DNA of 36,190 nt, taken from the NCBI GenBank assembly GCA_030756895.1, contig JAVBIX010000034.1:1-36190 (forward strand). The letters run 5' to 3'. This stretch comes from Synechococcus sp. SP2 MAG. Lineage in GTDB: Bacteria > Cyanobacteriota > Cyanobacteriia > PCC-6307 > Cyanobiaceae. Within the stretch, counting starts at the first letter, position 1, and each line of letters starts with the position of its first letter. This document shows positions 10,838-17,180 of this stretch, one piece after another. The notes under the pieces were generated by a model. The model was not told where the DNA came from, ran no database searches, and was given only the letters and a program-made list of their open reading frames with translations. Both the position numbers and the translations under genes were made by a program.

Positions 10838-11923
10838 TCAACGAACGCTTGGGTGGTATCGCTCGCTGCGAATCGGTGCCATCAAGAAAAGGGATGCCAT
10901 CTGAGCGCCGTTGGCCACCCAATGGGGAAGCTTGCGTAGCAGTTTGATGGGTGCAGGAGCTTGCGTTGCATCCACGGCGCTGAGCGCAGCGTTGTTGTTC
11001 ACCAAGCGTTCTAGACCATTGAAAAAGCGTGGATTCTTGACATCAAGAACAACTGGAAACACCCGTGCAGTGTTTTCGTTGGTTTTGTCGATGACCAAAC
11101 GGTCGTATTCACGAGCATCCAGACCCAGCGATTCGTAAAACTCCTTGCGTGCCACATCACGCACATACATGGTGGCAAACACCGCTAAAAGAAAGAAACG
11201 GCACCACAGTCGTGCGCGCAATCCCCTAACAGTGTCTGGCTGAGATTTCATCAATGCGTCAAAGAAATCACCGTGGCGATTTTCGTCTTGACACCAATTC
11301 TCGAAGAAGTTGAAGATCGGAAAAATCTTGCAGTCGGGATTTTGTTCAAAATGGCGGAAGATAGTGATATAACGCCAGTAACCAATTTTTTCAGACAGAT
11401 ATGTGGCGTAAAAAATAAATTTTGGTTTGAAGAATGTATAGCTCTTACTGGCTGTTAAGAAGCCAAGATCCAGTTGCAGGCCAAAATCGCTCATTGACTT
11501 GTTGAGGAAGCCAGCATGCCGCGCCTCATCACGGGCCATATGCGAGAAGCATTCGGCGAGTAGGGGATTTTTGGTTTTGATCCGACGGCTGAGCTCTTTG
11601 TAAAGCAAAAACCCGGAAAACTCAGACGTGCAACTTTGTTCTAGAAATTCAACGAATACTTTGCGAGTTTCTGGGTCAAGCTGATCTGCCGCCCCATCAA
11701 ATTCGCCATTGCGAACAAAGTGATGGCGGTTGTAATCCTTTCGAAACTCTTCGCAAATGGCTTCTAGTTCTGCCTCATTCGGACGCAGATCCATGGCGGC
11801 CATCGCCTCGAAATCTGTCGTGTAAAAACGAGGGGTCAGGATTGTGTCCTTCTCCGGGTCTTTCGCCGTAACGTTGGACCCTGGTGCTGCTGTGGCTTCC
11901 GTCACGGCTGTTGGAGGCACCAT
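10838..11923 (-). CDS. acsF: aerobic Mg-protoporphyrin IX monomethyl ester oxidative cyclase
   Basis: 361 residues from ATG 11923. AcsF (CycI, ChlA) is the di-iron oxygenase that closes ring E to give protochlorophyllide in chlorophyll synthesis at the thylakoid. Iron ligand motifs are clear: [20 protein letters not shown] (92-111), DEARH (132-136) and DENRH (213-217). The region [19 protein letters not shown] is highly typical. The first 30 residues are Ala/Thr/Val-rich and disordered, as in other marine Synechococcus AcsF. It lies downstream of DUF2996 and upstream of tldD in the same direction, with gaps of 74 and 61 bases that could hold promoters. Oxygen-dependent activity implies aerobic chlorophyll synthesis. 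Confidence 0.96.
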
Positions 11924-11997
11924 CGATTGCGTCAGTCACTACGACTCATCGTAGGTCGCCCTCCGGTAACGAACAGCCCAGTGTTACGACCTCTCAG

Positions 11998-12447
11998 TTA
12001 ATTCCCACCCAGCCATTTTTGTCCGTTCAGCCGCTGCAGCAATCGCGACTGGAGAAGGGCCAGGTTGATGCGCTTCTCATCGATCAAAAAGGATTCCAAC
12101 AGGCTTGGCTCCGTTCCGGATTCTGCAAGCGCAATCGTTTTACCGGATGTAATCGAATCCGATTCAAAGCAGACCCAGAACCGCCGATCGCCAGGTAATT
12201 CACCGGCGACCATCCAGCAATTGCCTCCTACAACAGGACGGTCCCCTTCGATCAGATCGATCGAAGCGGTGATCTGATGATTTGTGCTCAGCGCTTTGCT
12301 GAGGGATGGGATGAGATCGTCCTTGATGAACGCCTGAAAGGGCTTGTCCTCCAGCTTGGGCTTCGGAGCAGGTTTTGCTGCCGGCTTGGCCGCTGGTTTG
12401 GCATCTGCTTTGGCTGCAGCTTTGGCTGTTTCGGGAGTTTCGCTCAC
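11998..12447 (-). CDS. DUF2996 family protein
   Basis: 149 residues from ATG 12447. The first 35 residues are a low-complexity Ala-Lys-Pro tract (KADAKPAAKPAAKPAPKP) that is probably disordered and basic. The folded part starts at KLEDKPFQAFIKDDLIPSLSKAL and includes DRPVVGGNCWMVAGELPG and RRFWVCFESDSITSGKTIALAESG. This matches DUF2996, a family found in cyanobacteria and plastids; plastid relatives are annotated as chloroplast proteins (one is implicated in PSII assembly). It lies directly upstream of acsF in the same direction, which fits a photosynthetic assembly role, although that is inference from context. No signal or membrane segment. Confidence 0.85.
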   Translation of the reverse strand: MSETPETAKAAAKADAKPAAKPAAKPAPKPKLEDKPFQAFIKDDLIPSLSKALSTNHQITASIDLIEGDRPVVGGNCWMVAGELPGDRRFWVCFESDSITSGKTIALAESGTEPSLLESFLIDEKRINLALLQSRLLQRLNGQKWLGGN

Positions 12448-12492
12448 CGGACTTTGATTGCTGGGCGAACTGTAGACAGCCCAGGGCTCTCT

Positions 12493-13029
12493 CTACCAAT
12501 CATCGCCAATCTGTTGATTCCAGTCGTCGGGATCAGTCGATGCTCCTCCCCCTGCATCGGCAGCAGATGGATTGGCCTGTTGTTCCTTTGGCTGGATGGG
12601 GTTGGTGTCTTTTGATTGGGTTGGTGTTGCTTTGGCCTGGCTGCCTCGATGCACCACTCTGAAGGGCACTGAGACGGTTGGGGCTGGATCGCGCACGTCA
12701 CGTTCAGGCCATGGCGTGGGTTGAGCCGGTCTGGCCTGATGTTGTTGCTCACGAGGCAACGGCTCTTGAAAATCGGGCCCTTTTGCCGGCCGACGAACCT
12801 CTCGGCGCAGCACAGGATTCGAGGTCACCATCGCCAATCCAGCTACAGCGCTGACCCCTGATCCCAGGACCGTAGCGACCGCGATCCAGGCACCAATGGG
12901 CAATGTGGGCAATCTCCATGTGAGCACCCGCAACGATGACGCTTGTCCGAGATTGAGTGAGGCGATCAACAACATCAACACCACCGGACTCAGACAAGGA
13001 ATCAGCAGCAAGCGTTGAAAGGGTGTCAT
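12493..13029 (-). CDS. two-helix membrane protein with a long disordered tail
   Basis: 178 residues from ATG 13029, whose ATGA overlaps the stop of ubiX. Two hydrophobic helices (about residues 6-25 and 39-63) form a hairpin. A long Pro/Gln/Arg-rich tail follows (VRRPAKGPDFQEPLPRE) and then a Ser/Thr/Ala stretch. It ends in STDPDDWNQQIGDDW. The tail's TDPDDW is also found in the protein at 2731-3537. I recall similar tail-ended proteins in Synechococcus genomes next to acsF, of unknown function. It could be a thylakoid or plasma-membrane anchor whose tail docks partners (inference). Start at the overlap is favoured over TTG 13047, which would lie within ubiX. Confidence 0.75.
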   Translation of the reverse strand: MTPFQRLLLIPCLSPVVLMLLIASLNLGQASSLRVLTWRLPTLPIGAWIAVATVLGSGVSAVAGLAMVTSNPVLRREVRRPAKGPDFQEPLPREQQHQARPAQPTPWPERDVRDPAPTVSVPFRVVHRGSQAKATPTQSKDTNPIQPKEQQANPSAADAGGGASTDPDDWNQQIGDDW

Positions 13030-13670
13030 GGCTGGCGACCCTGCCAACGTTTCAGAGGACTTAAATCTTCGCCGAGGGAATCGAAGAGTCTCACCACTAA
13101 GAAATCAACCATCTCGCTGAGATTTTGGGGCTGGCTGTACCAGGCAGGGATGGGTGGTGCAATTCTTGCTCCCGCCTCAGCCAGAGCTGTGAGATTGCGG
13201 AGATGAATCAGGCTCCATGGCATTTCTCTAGGGGCCAGCACCAGTGGTCGTCCTTCCTTGAGATGAACATCAGCACAACGTTCGAGCAGATCACTGGCCA
13301 CTCCGGCCGCAATACGCCCGACGGTGCCCATCGAACAAGGAACAATCACCATGCCTCGGGTTGCCACACTTCCACTGGCAATCGTTGCGGCTTGATCTCC
13401 CCATCGATGGCAAATCAATGATCCTGTTTCAACATTCAACCGCGATCTCCAAAACCGCTCCTGAAGCGCAGGGTCGACGGGAACCTGGATGGATTGTTCG
13501 GCGAGCCAAACCTCATGAGCCCCCCGGCTCATGATCAGGTGAACGCTGCGGTCCTGTTGAAGCAAAAGTTGTAGGGCCCGCTCAGCAAGCGGTTGGGCTG
13601 AGGCGCCGCTCACCCCTAAGACATAGGGACGATCAGGTTGCTCCAAGAAGGACACGCCCCTAACCCTCAC
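13026..13670 (-). CDS. ubiX: flavin prenyltransferase UbiX
   Basis: 214 residues from GTG 13670 (GTG 13655 also possible). UbiX joins dimethylallyl phosphate to FMN to make prenyl-FMN, the cofactor of UbiD decarboxylases; in cyanobacteria these serve plastoquinone synthesis. Visible features: VLGVSGASAQPLAERALQLL with the flavin-binding GxSGAS turn, ATRGMVIVPCSMGTVGRIAAG (phosphate site), and RPLVLAPREMPWSLIHLRNL with the conserved APRE.P. The start overlaps the end of the RNB-fold gene by 11 bases and its stop overlaps the next ATG, so it sits in a translationally coupled chain. No UbiD is present in the window. Confidence 0.93.
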   Translation of the reverse strand: MRVRGVSFLEQPDRPYVLGVSGASAQPLAERALQLLLQQDRSVHLIMSRGAHEVWLAEQSIQVPVDPALQERFWRSRLNVETGSLICHRWGDQAATIASGSVATRGMVIVPCSMGTVGRIAAGVASDLLERCADVHLKEGRPLVLAPREMPWSLIHLRNLTALAEAGARIAPPIPAWYSQPQNLSEMVDFLVVRLFDSLGEDLSPLKRWQGRQP

Positions 13671-16044
13671 TCACGGCCACAGGCATTGGTGACTCGTCTT
13701 GTTGTGCTTGTTCTGGGGTCATCACGATGTCTAGGTCGATCTGATTGCGCAGGACGTCCACCTTGGTTACCCGAACCGTGACGGGATCTCCAAGTTTGTA
13801 AACCCGGCGATTACGGCGACCCACAAGCCGGTTTTGGCGCGAGCGATATTCGTACCAATCGTCGTTTAAGGAGCTGACATGCACCAGACCCTCCACCATG
13901 GAGGGGGCAATTTCCACGAAGAATCCATAACTCTGAACGCCGCTGATCACTCCTTGTTGTTCATGATCGAGCATCGGTTCGGCGCTTCGTGCTTGAGCCA
14001 TCGCAATGACATCTCTGCGTAGCTCTGTCTGCTGGCGACGCCGAGAATTAAGCCGTTGCAGTTGGCGTTCTTGGAGAAGCTCCTGCAAGCGTTGTTGGAG
14101 CGACCCGCTAAACAGCGGCCAAGACAAGCTTGAAGCGGCACCTTTACTGCCCAGGTTGACCGTTTCTTTCTGGCGAACGCTGGGACGATCCTTGCCATCA
14201 TTGAGCAGCTGACACAACACCTGCTGGTTCAATAAATCGGCGTAATGCAGGCCGGGACAGCACCAAGGAGCCAATAAGGGAGTCGATCCATCCTGAGCAG
14301 GAGATGACATCTCATCAGAGTCGTTTGCAGTGTCAATGGCCTCAAGACAGTCTTCTGTCTCAGTTGCTGATCCATCGTCTTCACCGGCGAGTGCGATGTG
14401 CTTGGCCTTTGCCTGGATCAGGCGGTACTGGGGATCCGGGAGGGTGTGTCGCAGCTGCAGATTGAGCACCCGTCTCGATGGGCTTGCGATCAAGGCTTGT
14501 GCGAGTTCGGATGCTGAGGTGGTGCCCTCTTCATCGAGAGAAAGAGGCAGCTCTAAGGCAATGGCTGCTTTGGCGACATCATTCAGAGGTCCACTGTCGG
14601 GATCATTGGCTTGCAGCACCAGAGCTGGAAGATTGAAATCCAGGCAATGCTCAGTCCAAGTGGCATGAGCTGCTCGCAGAAACACAGCCAAGATTGAAAA
14701 GGGATCCTCGTCCCTCAGCGGTTCAATCCACTGCCGGTTGCCACCATCAGGTTCGGTGGCTCGCAGGTCTCCCAGAGTTTCCAAATTGGGTGTTGGGAGA
14801 TCCAATTCGATTTTGCCCTGTCTTAGATCTGCGGCGTGAAGAGCTTTGGCGCAAAAGATCAGAGTCTCGAGTTGTCCGATTTGATCTTTGATCGATTTGA
14901 GTGCTGCTGGGATGGCACGAGATCGGGGCTTGCGCCCCGCCAAAGCAGCCAAAGCCTCCGACGTCACTTCAGCGACAGGTCGAATCTGAGTCAGACAAAA
15001 TTCCCAGCCGCGAGCTTCGCCTTCAGCATCGAGATCAATACGAAGACTCACCGCTGATTGTGAGTCTCCAACCTTGAAAGCGGCCGCTTTGGAGATGTTG
15101 GCGCTCAGCAACGGGATCCATTTATTGCCCAAACAAAGCGCTTCGCTTTGTTCGCACAGCCATTGATCAAGACTGTTGCCGGGGTTCACGCGTTCTGCGA
15201 CAGCAGGGGCATGAATCCACAACTGGGTTCCACCGTCATGGGGGATGACATGGACTGCAGGCAGGAGGGGGGCACCATCAATCTCCCAGTTGTTCAGTAA
15301 TAAACAGGGCTGATCGGTGAGGTCTTTGCGTCGTTTATCTGCTGGAGCCTTAATCGTTGTTCTTGGGGCACTGGCCCTGGAGTGCAAATGGGCCTTGGTG
15401 AGTAGGAGATCGCGATCAGCATCGACACCGCCGTTGAGTGGCAGCGAACGGGCCACATGGCCGCGGGCTGGGTGTTGAGCGATCGGGTATCGATCCAGCT
15501 GCACTTCCACCACTGATGTGACTGGTCCCTCGAGTTGGTAGTCGCTATCTCCCTCGGGTAGCTCGATAGAGGCGAGAAGACGATCATCGAGAGGAACGGC
15601 GAGCAGTCGTTCATCTTGTTGCTCCACTTGGGCCAAAAGACTCGTGGTTGCCCTTTGCAAAATGCATTGCACCCCGCCCTCTGGAGATCGACGACGGCCT
15701 GCATCACGGATGATGCGCACCAACACTCGGTCACCATTCCAAGCGTGATTCAGCTGATGGTCACGGATGTAGATGTCTTCGTCGCCGTCATCACGAATGG
15801 CAAAACAGAACCCTTTGCTGCTGCAGCGCAAACGGGCTTCAATCAAGCCGATGTCGTCGCTTCGGGAGACCGAACTCTCCTCTTCAAGGTTCAGTACACC
15901 AAGGCGATCAAGGCCCTTCAGCGCAATGCTGAGTGACTGTTTGTCGGCTCTGTTGGTTAGACGGAGAATCTTCTCGAGTTTGCTGACCTCAAGTGAGCCG
16001 TCTTGGGGGACCTGGTCGAGAAGGTCGGCGACCGTGAATTTCAT
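13660..16044 (-). CDS. RNase II/R-family protein with a degenerate RNB catalytic site
   Basis: 794 residues from ATG 16044 (the frame opens earlier at 16089, but MKFTVADLLDQVPQDG is the natural start). Domain order follows RNase R: winged-helix N-terminus, cold-shock OB domains (SSKGFCFAIRDDGDEDIYI), RNB-like core, C-terminal S1 domain (ISGVQSYGFFVEIAPSMVEGL abbreviated, then DPVTVRVTKVD). The core seems inactive. Where active enzymes have IDGEDARDFDDA, this has IDGAPLLPAVHV (255-266), losing the metal-binding Asp cluster; where they have TSPIRRYPDL, it has CCPGLHYADL. RNA binding may remain, giving a decoy or regulatory role (inference). Annotation as an active exoribonuclease would be unsafe. 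It overlaps ubiX by 11 bases. Confidence 0.85.
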   Translation of the reverse strand: MKFTVADLLDQVPQDGSLEVSKLEKILRLTNRADKQSLSIALKGLDRLGVLNLEEESSVSRSDDIGLIEARLRCSSKGFCFAIRDDGDEDIYIRDHQLNHAWNGDRVLVRIIRDAGRRRSPEGGVQCILQRATTSLLAQVEQQDERLLAVPLDDRLLASIELPEGDSDYQLEGPVTSVVEVQLDRYPIAQHPARGHVARSLPLNGGVDADRDLLLTKAHLHSRASAPRTTIKAPADKRRKDLTDQPCLLLNNWEIDGAPLLPAVHVIPHDGGTQLWIHAPAVAERVNPGNSLDQWLCEQSEALCLGNKWIPLLSANISKAAAFKVGDSQSAVSLRIDLDAEGEARGWEFCLTQIRPVAEVTSEALAALAGRKPRSRAIPAALKSIKDQIGQLETLIFCAKALHAADLRQGKIELDLPTPNLETLGDLRATEPDGGNRQWIEPLRDEDPFSILAVFLRAAHATWTEHCLDFNLPALVLQANDPDSGPLNDVAKAAIALELPLSLDEEGTTSASELAQALIASPSRRVLNLQLRHTLPDPQYRLIQAKAKHIALAGEDDGSATETEDCLEAIDTANDSDEMSSPAQDGSTPLLAPWCCPGLHYADLLNQQVLCQLLNDGKDRPSVRQKETVNLGSKGAASSLSWPLFSGSLQQRLQELLQERQLQRLNSRRRQQTELRRDVIAMAQARSAEPMLDHEQQGVISGVQSYGFFVEIAPSMVEGLVHVSSLNDDWYEYRSRQNRLVGRRNRRVYKLGDPVTVRVTKVDVLRNQIDLDIVMTPEQAQQDESPMPVAVSEG

Positions 16045-16170
16045 CGGAGCGTGCAAGAAACCGGCCTTCAGGACCGGGAGTTGAATCAAAACCGTTGCAC
16101 TCGAAGAGTTGGTAATGCAATCAGTAATGACAAATCAACTCTAATCGTCCGTCTGAACGCAATCCCCCTC

Positions 16171-16476
16171 TTAGTCGTCGGTCTGGCTGGATCCCAATCC
16201 GGCTTGGAGCATGGGCATCAGCAAGCGGCCTCCAATCACCAAAAATCCAGTGGAAGCCACCAGTTGCAGCCAGTCGGCGGGAATCACAGCGGATAATGAC
16301 CCTCCTGCCACAGCACCAATCAAGCTGGCGAGTACTAAGGCGCTCGAGGATCCGAGAAACACCGCCAACGGTCGATCGGATGTGCCGCTGATTGCCACAG
16401 TTGCCAGTTGGGTTTTGTCACCGAGCTCTGCCAAGAACACGGTCACAAACGTGGAAATGAGAAGGGTGAAGTCCAT
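16171..16476 (-). CDS. Gdt1/UPF0016 half-transporter, second half
   Basis: 101 residues from ATG 16476, three membrane helices. It carries one family signature FVTVFLAELGDKTQLATVAIS at the N-terminus (ExGDK), then GSSSALVLASLIGAVAGG. UPF0016 proteins are Mn2+/Ca2+ transporters; most have two copies of the signature in one chain (six helices), while some bacteria and cyanobacteria encode two single-repeat subunits. Here it starts seven bases after the sister half at 16484-16813, so a heterodimer is expected. In cyanobacteria the fused version (Mnx, sll0615) protects from Mn overload and loads the thylakoid lumen. Confidence 0.9.
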   Translation of the reverse strand: MDFTLLISTFVTVFLAELGDKTQLATVAISGTSDRPLAVFLGSSSALVLASLIGAVAGGSLSAVIPADWLQLVASTGFLVIGGRLLMPMLQAGLGSSQTDD

Positions 16477-16483
16477 AAAAATT

Positions 16484-16813
16484 TCAGAGTGATTGGGTCT
16501 CTATCAGTGACTTCAAGGCCTGACTGCCCAGCCACAAACCCAGTCCAACCATCAGCAAACCTGCCATTTGTTCCAGGCGTTCTGGGGGAAGGATGGTGGA
16601 TAGCCAACGTCCCACCAGAACTCCCACCAGGCTTGAACAGATCAATGCAAGCGCGGCTCCGATAAACACCAACCATGGTTCGCCGGATTGGGCGGAAAGG
16701 AGAAGGGTGGCTAATTGGGTTTTGTCACCCAATTCAGCGAGGAATACGGTGGTAAAAGTGCTCAGCAGAACGGCATTAAACCCAAGCTTGTTGTCGCTAC
16801 CTGCTTCAGTCAT
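16484..16813 (-). CDS. Gdt1/UPF0016 half-transporter, first half
   Basis: 109 residues from ATG 16813, three membrane helices. The signature FTTVFLAELGDKTQLATLLLS sits at residues 19-39, followed by GAALALICSSLVGVLVGR. It is strongly similar to the adjacent half-gene, including the ELGDKTQLAT core, but each copy has its own loops. It overlaps the stop of the YkgJ-like gene by eight bases and precedes the other half by seven, making a three-gene operon. The likely function is Mn2+ (or Ca2+) transport for thylakoid metal supply. The N-terminus is short and polar, so no cleavable signal is seen. Confidence 0.9.
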   Translation of the reverse strand: MTEAGSDNKLGFNAVLLSTFTTVFLAELGDKTQLATLLLSAQSGEPWLVFIGAALALICSSLVGVLVGRWLSTILPPERLEQMAGLLMVGLGLWLGSQALKSLIETQSL

Positions 16814-17180
16814 CGGCGTCCTGAGGTGAGCGGATCAACCGTTCGAACTTACGCAGTTCCAAGCTTCTTCCGCCATGAACCGATCGAATTTGCTGTCTAC
16901 AGCAATCAATAGCGAAGGCATTGACCTCCTCCGCAGGTACCGCAAATAAGTCAGCTAAACCGCTCACCCTGCAAAAGTCAGGGCGGTCTTCATAAATCCT
17001 GCAGCGCCGGCCTCCCTGGTCGAAATTCCTGCACCATCCGTCCTCCCCCACCATCTCCAGATAGATCGTTTGCTGATCGTCCGATAACGCTTCAAGAGCT
17101 TCCTGTCGTTCAGCCGGAGCAAGCCTGCAACAGGCACCGCAGTGATTCAGGCAGGACCAGTGAAGAGGCGGTCGGCTCAT
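16806..17180 (-). CDS. YkgJ-family cysteine cluster protein
   Basis: 124 residues from ATG 17180. Cysteines are arranged as CLNHCGACC at the N-terminus (C-x3-C-x2-CC), followed by GWCRNFDQGGRRCRIYEDRPDFCRV, and a CC pair later (DCCRQQ). This is the YkgJ/UPF0153 pattern, proposed to bind zinc or an Fe-S cluster; the function is unknown. In marine Synechococcus it sits with Gdt1 halves, here as first gene of the three-gene operon with an eight-base overlap. A metal-linked partner role with the transporter is plausible but unproven. It diverges from psb30 across a 118-base region. Confidence 0.88.
   Translation of the reverse strand: MSRPPLHWSCLNHCGACCRLAPAERQEALEALSDDQQTIYLEMVGEDGWCRNFDQGGRRCRIYEDRPDFCRVSGLADLFAVPAEEVNAFAIDCCRQQIRSVHGGRSLELRKFERLIRSPQDADD

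Follow-up and report, generated by a model that had tools for sequence, protein, structure and literature searches.

Zam, a cyanobacterial protein of the RNB (RNase II/R) family described by Thomas et al. in 2022 (PMC9145284), is the closest described system to the gene analyzed here. According to the portions of that paper available to us, Zam proteins (acetazolamide resistance proteins, among them Synechocystis sll1910 and Synechococcus PCC 7002 A1543) form a cyanobacterial clade of their own with an extremely degenerate active site. Their first cold-shock domain (CSD1) carries two redox-active cysteines, C73 and C79 in PCC 7002, which are termed invariant; recombinant Zam shifts its mobility in gels with redox state, and mutation of either cysteine in PCC 7002 copies the phenotype of the zam deletion, that is, a mild growth defect, less phycocyanin and an altered PSI:PSII ratio (PMC9145284). 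An acetazolamide phenotype of zam has been published for PCC 6803 (PMC9145284), and in a Synechocystis CRISPRi screen repression of zam harms growth in lactate (PMC7125299). Purified PCC 7002 Zam displayed neither nuclease activity (data not shown there) nor RNA-binding activity, with a caveat about aggregation (PMC9145284). Thomas et al. also identify Anabaena Alr1240 as Zam; a review describes Alr1240 as binding RNase E and raising its activity, and reports it as an RNase II-type enzyme that degrades unstructured RNA. The published descriptions of Alr1240, as an active RNase II in one case and as Zam in the other, are in conflict.

The window, meaning the whole stretch of DNA that was analyzed, comprises 36,190 nucleotides of the Synechococcus sp. 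SP2 MAG (contig JAVBIX010000034.1). Its zam gene lies on the reverse strand at 13660-16044, with a coding sequence that runs from an ATG at 16044 (the Met that matches the start of Zam relatives) to a stop at 13660: 794 codons without internal stops, as in the intact 794-residue frame read in an earlier note made from the letters of this DNA alone. The note had placed its feature at 14230-15282; the open reading frame is real, but that span is just a portion of its RNB domain. The domain order given there is largely recovered, in that CSD1 (OB_RNB, 15667..15834, reverse strand, Pfam E 8.9e-19), the RNB domain without catalytic residues (14200..15330, reverse strand, E 2.9e-42) and the S1 domain (13729..13968, reverse strand, E 8.2e-12) all score above the Pfam cut-offs and follow the order CSD, CSD, RNB, S1, while CSD2 falls slightly below threshold (24.9 bits against a cut-off of 26.2). 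For the winged helix also named there, no Pfam model is among the matches to the protein; the N-terminal part is helical by prediction and is covered solely by the NCBIfam RNase R model, whose match starts at residue 19 of the 809-aa frame. This model, TIGR02063, is the best NCBIfam match of the protein, at 193.7 bits, far under its cut-off of 597.85, and so the NCBIfam rule would not name the protein RNase R. The expectation that automatic annotation would call the gene an exoribonuclease fails for that rule, and is borne out more generally by the many genomes in which Zam is annotated as an exonuclease, as stated in the available text of Thomas et al. (2022; PMC9145284).

That this gene is a zam orthologue, and an ordinary member of the known cyanobacterial family, we regard as almost certain. 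With Zam as far as described in the available text (PMC9145284) it shares the domain order, a degenerate RNB domain and the C-x5-C pair, as well as the position of a second RNB gene beside an intact Rnb and membership in a cyanobacterial clade. In a phylogenetic tree all 144 Zam sequences group together, separately from the 14 Rnb sequences, with moderate local support (0.82), and the 46 members of the window's family, which we call picocyanobacterial (Cyanobiaceae) on gene content, form one clade nested within Zam (support 1.0). CSD1 of the window protein reads RCSSKGFCF, with both Zam cysteines in place (C74-x5-C80, 15805..15825, reverse strand, equivalent to C73/C79 of PCC 7002); the pair occurs in 42/46 members of the window's family and 95/98 other Zam, and is absent from all 14 Rnb. 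The second RNB gene of the same genome (L001) encodes a protein of 700 aa in which IDDEDTRDIDDGIAL and TSPIRRYGDL are intact, and lies beside rpsR and rpmG. Cyanobacterial Rnb/RNase II proteins, such as this one and Synechocystis sll1290, have the RNB fold in common with the window protein but are only 16-19% identical to it, and they adjoin rpsR and rpmG in 8/14 loci. Zam is an RNB-family paralogue distinct from the cell's catalytic RNase II/R, and most likely one that no longer cuts RNA. Since Zam was described by Thomas et al. (2022; PMC9145284, as far as that text was available), the core of this finding is already known: the Zam pseudonuclease is in print and the case in the window is a rediscovery. 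No other paper devoted to Zam was among the matches listed in our literature search, from which subscription journals were mostly missing.

The state of the active site was read from an alignment of 161 RNB proteins: 144 Zam, 14 Rnb, L162 (see below), and E. coli RNase R and RNase II. Three of the 164 loci with an RNB frame were dropped, L002 as a duplicate of L033, and L025 and L112 as truncated. Outside the window's family, 30 Zam loci (including L025, dropped later) were taken as the best RNB scorers and the others were hand-picked for spread, and the residue counts hence apply to this sample and not to cyanobacteria at large. The locus used for E. coli RNase R ends 95 bases before the end of the gene, and L152 has masked bases near the Asp loop. 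Numbering was anchored on the N-terminal residues that we assign to E. coli RNase II and RNase R; the RNase II metal ligands, which we take to be D201, D207, D209 and D210, and the catalytic arginine, taken to be R500, agree in letter with the fetched RNase II sequence.

The metal-ligand positions D201, D207, D209 and D210 of RNase II correspond to N251, P259, L261 and P262 of the window protein, in the former four-Asp loop (N251-P262, NNWEIDGAPLLP; 15259..15294, reverse strand). R500 is replaced by L599 in the former TSPIRRYPDL block, now WCCPGLHYADL (W594-L604; 14233..14265, reverse strand), and Y253 by C304. The 161-protein alignment thus bears out the central claim of the earlier note, that an RNase II/R-like protein has lost both catalytic motifs, including its reading of the C-terminal block as CCPGLHYADL without the catalytic Arg. 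A pairing of 'IDG' with 'IDG' made there proved out of register: in the family alignment, and by phmmer against E. coli RNase R, the ancestral 'TIDGE' aligns with 'LNNW' of the window protein, followed by a two-residue insertion, and the first catalytic Asp matches N251. D256 of the window's 'IDG' is Asp in only 7/46 family members.

The comparison with other cyanobacteria that the note had proposed found all four catalytic acids in 14/14 canonical Rnb and in 0/144 Zam, and the latter count is conservative because 30 of the loci outside the window's family were chosen for their best-scoring RNB domains. Among the 98 Zam outside the family, three acids are kept in 14, two in 47, one in 22 and none in 15; within it, 37/46 members keep none and 9/46 keep one. 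The catalytic Arg is present in 14/14 Rnb, 60/98 Zam outside the family and 0/46 members of the family. On these counts of acids and Arg per group, catalysis is lost by degrees across cyanobacterial Zam, as far as it can be judged from residues, and furthest in the window's family; the window protein very probably has no nuclease activity. This stepwise loss, from three acids remaining in some lineages to one at most in the window's family, is one of the points that the survey adds to the published family, beside the natural cysteine variants described below. Unlike Zam as described in the available parts of Thomas et al. (PMC9145284), the window's family lacks ligands in the Asp loop as well as in the Arg block, and has new conserved residues in both segments, plus a further cysteine, C127. 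With no intact site among the 144 Zam sampled, the RNA degradation reported for Alr1240 conflicts with its identification as Zam.

The structure of the window protein was predicted from 46 sequences; a further 80 Zam loci (of 252 matches) were used for gene order (80/80) and for this fold alignment (45/80), not for residue counts. As the earlier note had suggested it might be worth doing, the prediction gives an RNase R-like fold, of middling quality: mean pLDDT is 67.7 and pTM 0.60, with pLDDT <50 at residues 254-259 and 546-598, the latter preceding the old Arg block. Among PDB entries, Foldseek matches it best to RNase R structures (E 1.0e-38 and 1.9e-38), and VIA-align matches it to RNase R chain 8cdu_C with Z 30.7 over 599 residues (span 64-776). 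The likeness to E. coli RNase R thus extends from the best NCBIfam model to the top structural matches; the difference lies in the missing catalytic residues and in the score far under the RNase R cut-off.

The old catalytic segments of the window's family contain residues that are conserved within it and rare elsewhere. In the old Asp loop these are W253 (43/46, against 0/98 other Zam), P259 (45/46, against 4/98) and L261 (44/46, against 0/98), and around the old Arg block P593 (44/46, against 4/98), W594 (42/46, against 1/98) and N606 (46/46, against 16/98). In the old segments, 6/30 columns reach at least 90% conservation within the family while being rare in other Zam, compared with 16/315 in the rest of the RNB domain (Fisher p = 0.007, a generous value, as related sequences were treated as independent and the segment limits were self-chosen); with ancestral columns such as A263 and Y601 included, conserved columns number 9/30 and 38/315 (p = 0.012). 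The third cysteine, C127 (15664..15666, reverse strand), is Cys in 46/46 family members and 0/98 other Zam. C74, by contrast with the invariance claimed for its PCC 7002 counterpart, is Ser in 4/46 (L148, L150, L155 and L156), which occupy three places on the tree and use the codons TCC, AGT and AGC, implying at least three changes; C80 and C127 are retained in each of the four. One or both cysteines of the CSD1 pair are also missing from three Zam outside the family (L087, L100 and L108). A C74-C80 disulfide is therefore not universal, and these natural variants conflict with a simple one-disulfide model; in PCC 7002 a change of the C74-type cysteine is null (PMC9145284, from the text available). 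A second metal or thiol site formed by C304, C595 and C596 was considered but is not supported, all three being present in just 19/46 family members. Neither the family-specific residues nor C127 appear in the available portions of Thomas et al. (2022; PMC9145284), and together with C74S they are possibly new, at most as a small addition. It is conceivable, if in our view improbable, that picocyanobacterial Zam took a second step beyond the published loss of catalysis, in which the dead pocket and the residues around it became fixed anew as a conserved surface (W253, P259, L261, E284-R285, P593, W594, N606), while the addition of C127 rewired the thiol switch; C80 would then be able to pair with C127, and C74 would be dispensable for that reason.

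Could the changes at the active site reflect error, decay or a displaced activity? A sequence or frame error is ruled out, as the earlier note had maintained, by the stop-free frame, by a full-length orthologue in a congener that is 94% identical, and by dN/dS values of 0.13 and 0.08 for zam against two congeners (dS was saturated in two further pairs). For the RNB part against the same two congeners dN/dS is 0.15 and 0.11, and all four parts measured have ratios clearly below 1. A decaying pseudogene might be suspected from the absent catalytic motifs and from an RNB domain that evolves more quickly than CSD1 and S1 (the share of family-alignment columns with at least 90% conservation is 50% in CSD1, the best conserved domain, 39% in S1 and 13.6% in RNB); set against the open frame, the low dN/dS and the presence of a zam relative in 46/46 family genomes searched, this reading is hardly credible. 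The sequence data indicate that picocyanobacterial Zam is a maintained non-enzyme and not a decaying nuclease, which fits the proposal in the earlier note of a pseudo-enzyme under selection for something other than nuclease activity; the 'decoy' and 'chaperone' roles mentioned with it find no support. We also consider it very unlikely that the window protein retains RNA-cutting activity at some unconventional site. Such activity would accord with the RNase II-type behavior reported for Alr1240, called Zam by Thomas et al. (PMC9145284), with the Zam outside the family that retain three acids or the Arg, and with eight other RNB positions, outside the old site, that hold Asp or Glu in at least 90% of family members (241, 284, 293, 426, 483, 489, 498 and 506). 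However, positions 241, 293, 483 and 489 are also acidic in at least 13/14 active Rnb, where they are not metal ligands, and position 506 is acidic in 74/98 other Zam, so that only 284, 426 and 498 are new to the family, with 426 inside a stretch of pLDDT <50. Three new acidic positions are fewer than the four ligands needed, and the supply of acids from elsewhere in the chain, named in the earlier note as a finding that would overturn its reading, is not supported by the alignment. The near-complete loss of acids and the complete loss of the Arg within the family tell against residual cutting as well, as does the inactivity of purified PCC 7002 Zam, with the caveat given above.

If Zam is not a nuclease, what is it kept for? 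The best explanation overall, to which we give somewhat better than even chances, is that it is a maintained non-enzyme that regulates RNA turnover under redox control. Its basis in the sequence is the kept domain order and predicted fold, the loss of catalytic residues, the purifying selection on the gene, and the strongest conservation in CSD1, with its cysteine pair, and S1. As the main mechanism, redox gating of RNase E and of RNA turnover seems to us about evenly balanced between right and wrong. By analogy with other species, CSD1 and S1 would bind RNA and/or RNase E, oxidation and reduction of the CSD1 cysteine pair would switch this binding, and RNA turnover, and by way of it pigment and photosystem synthesis, would track the redox state of the cell; the dead RNB core may act as a scaffold or interface. 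The role is suggested by the PCC 7002 cysteine mutants and by the binding and activation of RNase E by Alr1240 (PMC9145284, in the parts available, and the review). Counted against the mechanism are the lack of RNA binding by PCC 7002 Zam, the replacement of C74 by Ser and the RNA degradation reported for Alr1240, and against a role in RNA turnover, that zam adjoins ubiX and GDT1 genes, not RNA-decay genes. The RNA-binding role assumed in the earlier note likewise finds no backing in the purified PCC 7002 protein, which showed no RNA binding, subject to the aggregation caveat (PMC9145284, available text).

Two other roles deserve comparison with this one. Zam may act like yeast Ssd1, as a pseudonuclease whose outer surface binds selected mRNAs and which regulates their translation independently of RNase E, a possibility we rate as clearly less probable. 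Ssd1 is an RNase II-family protein that the cell keeps despite the loss of its four catalytic acids and that has an alternative RNA-binding surface (PMC8934651, available text); the predicted fold of the window protein matches Ssd1 (7am1; Foldseek E 2.6e-24, VIA-align Z 26.7), less well than RNase R, and conservation concentrated in CSD1 and S1 would suit this role. But 7am1 ranks 33rd by Foldseek and 26th by VIA-align, as expected for any RNB protein; to our knowledge no bound mRNA is known for Zam, and PCC 7002 Zam was not seen to bind RNA (PMC9145284). Ssd1 differs, moreover, in being eukaryotic and Dis3L2-related, with a channel closed off by loops that an insert specific to Ssd1 keeps in place, and the available portions of PMC8934651 describe no CSD1 cysteine switch such as that of Zam. 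Alternatively, the RNB domain, including the old active-site region, may have become an interface for a non-RNA partner (for example UbiX, GDT1 or a photosystem assembly factor), with any RNA role secondary or lost. The interface reading, which we think unlikely, draws on the enrichment of family-specific conserved columns in the old catalytic segments and on gene order: ubiX lies downstream of zam on the same strand in 42/46 family loci, and the GDT1 pair lies upstream in 46/46. Gene order alone does not show contact, however; 16 of the 22 family-specific conserved columns lie outside the old site, the enrichment carries the limits stated with it, and conservation is higher in the family's RNA-binding domains, CSD1 and S1, than in RNB.

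In the window, the ubiX-type flavin prenyltransferase gene (13026..13670, reverse strand, identified by NCBIfam/Pfam match) is a conserved neighbor of zam and overlaps its end by 11 nt if the ubiX GTG is the start, and the two half-size GDT1 cation antiporter genes (16171..16813, reverse strand) are directly upstream. Adjacency of zam and ubiX was also seen in 52/100 other Zam loci, examined with short flanks, and in 64/80 further loci. The gene order on the reverse strand at 10838-17180 is: CxxCxxCC protein, GDT1, GDT1, zam, ubiX, an ORF, DUF2996 and acsF, so that this relative of RNase R is surrounded mostly by metal and photosynthesis genes; the fourth gene downstream of zam is acsF, which serves chlorophyll synthesis. 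The ORF after ubiX (12493-13047, reverse strand) has no Pfam or NCBIfam match and occurs in 28/46 family loci, within short flanks. Searches for zam on plasmids and phages returned 28 plasmid and 27 phage matches, each with less than 60% identity and less than 80% coverage of the query; among the 15 listed of each, those annotated under the match are labeled ribonuclease R, VacB/RNase II family or nuclease. Lastly, L162 (genome G160) represents a third RNB protein, a 644-aa frame with the four acids and the Arg intact, which belongs to neither the Zam nor the Rnb clade.
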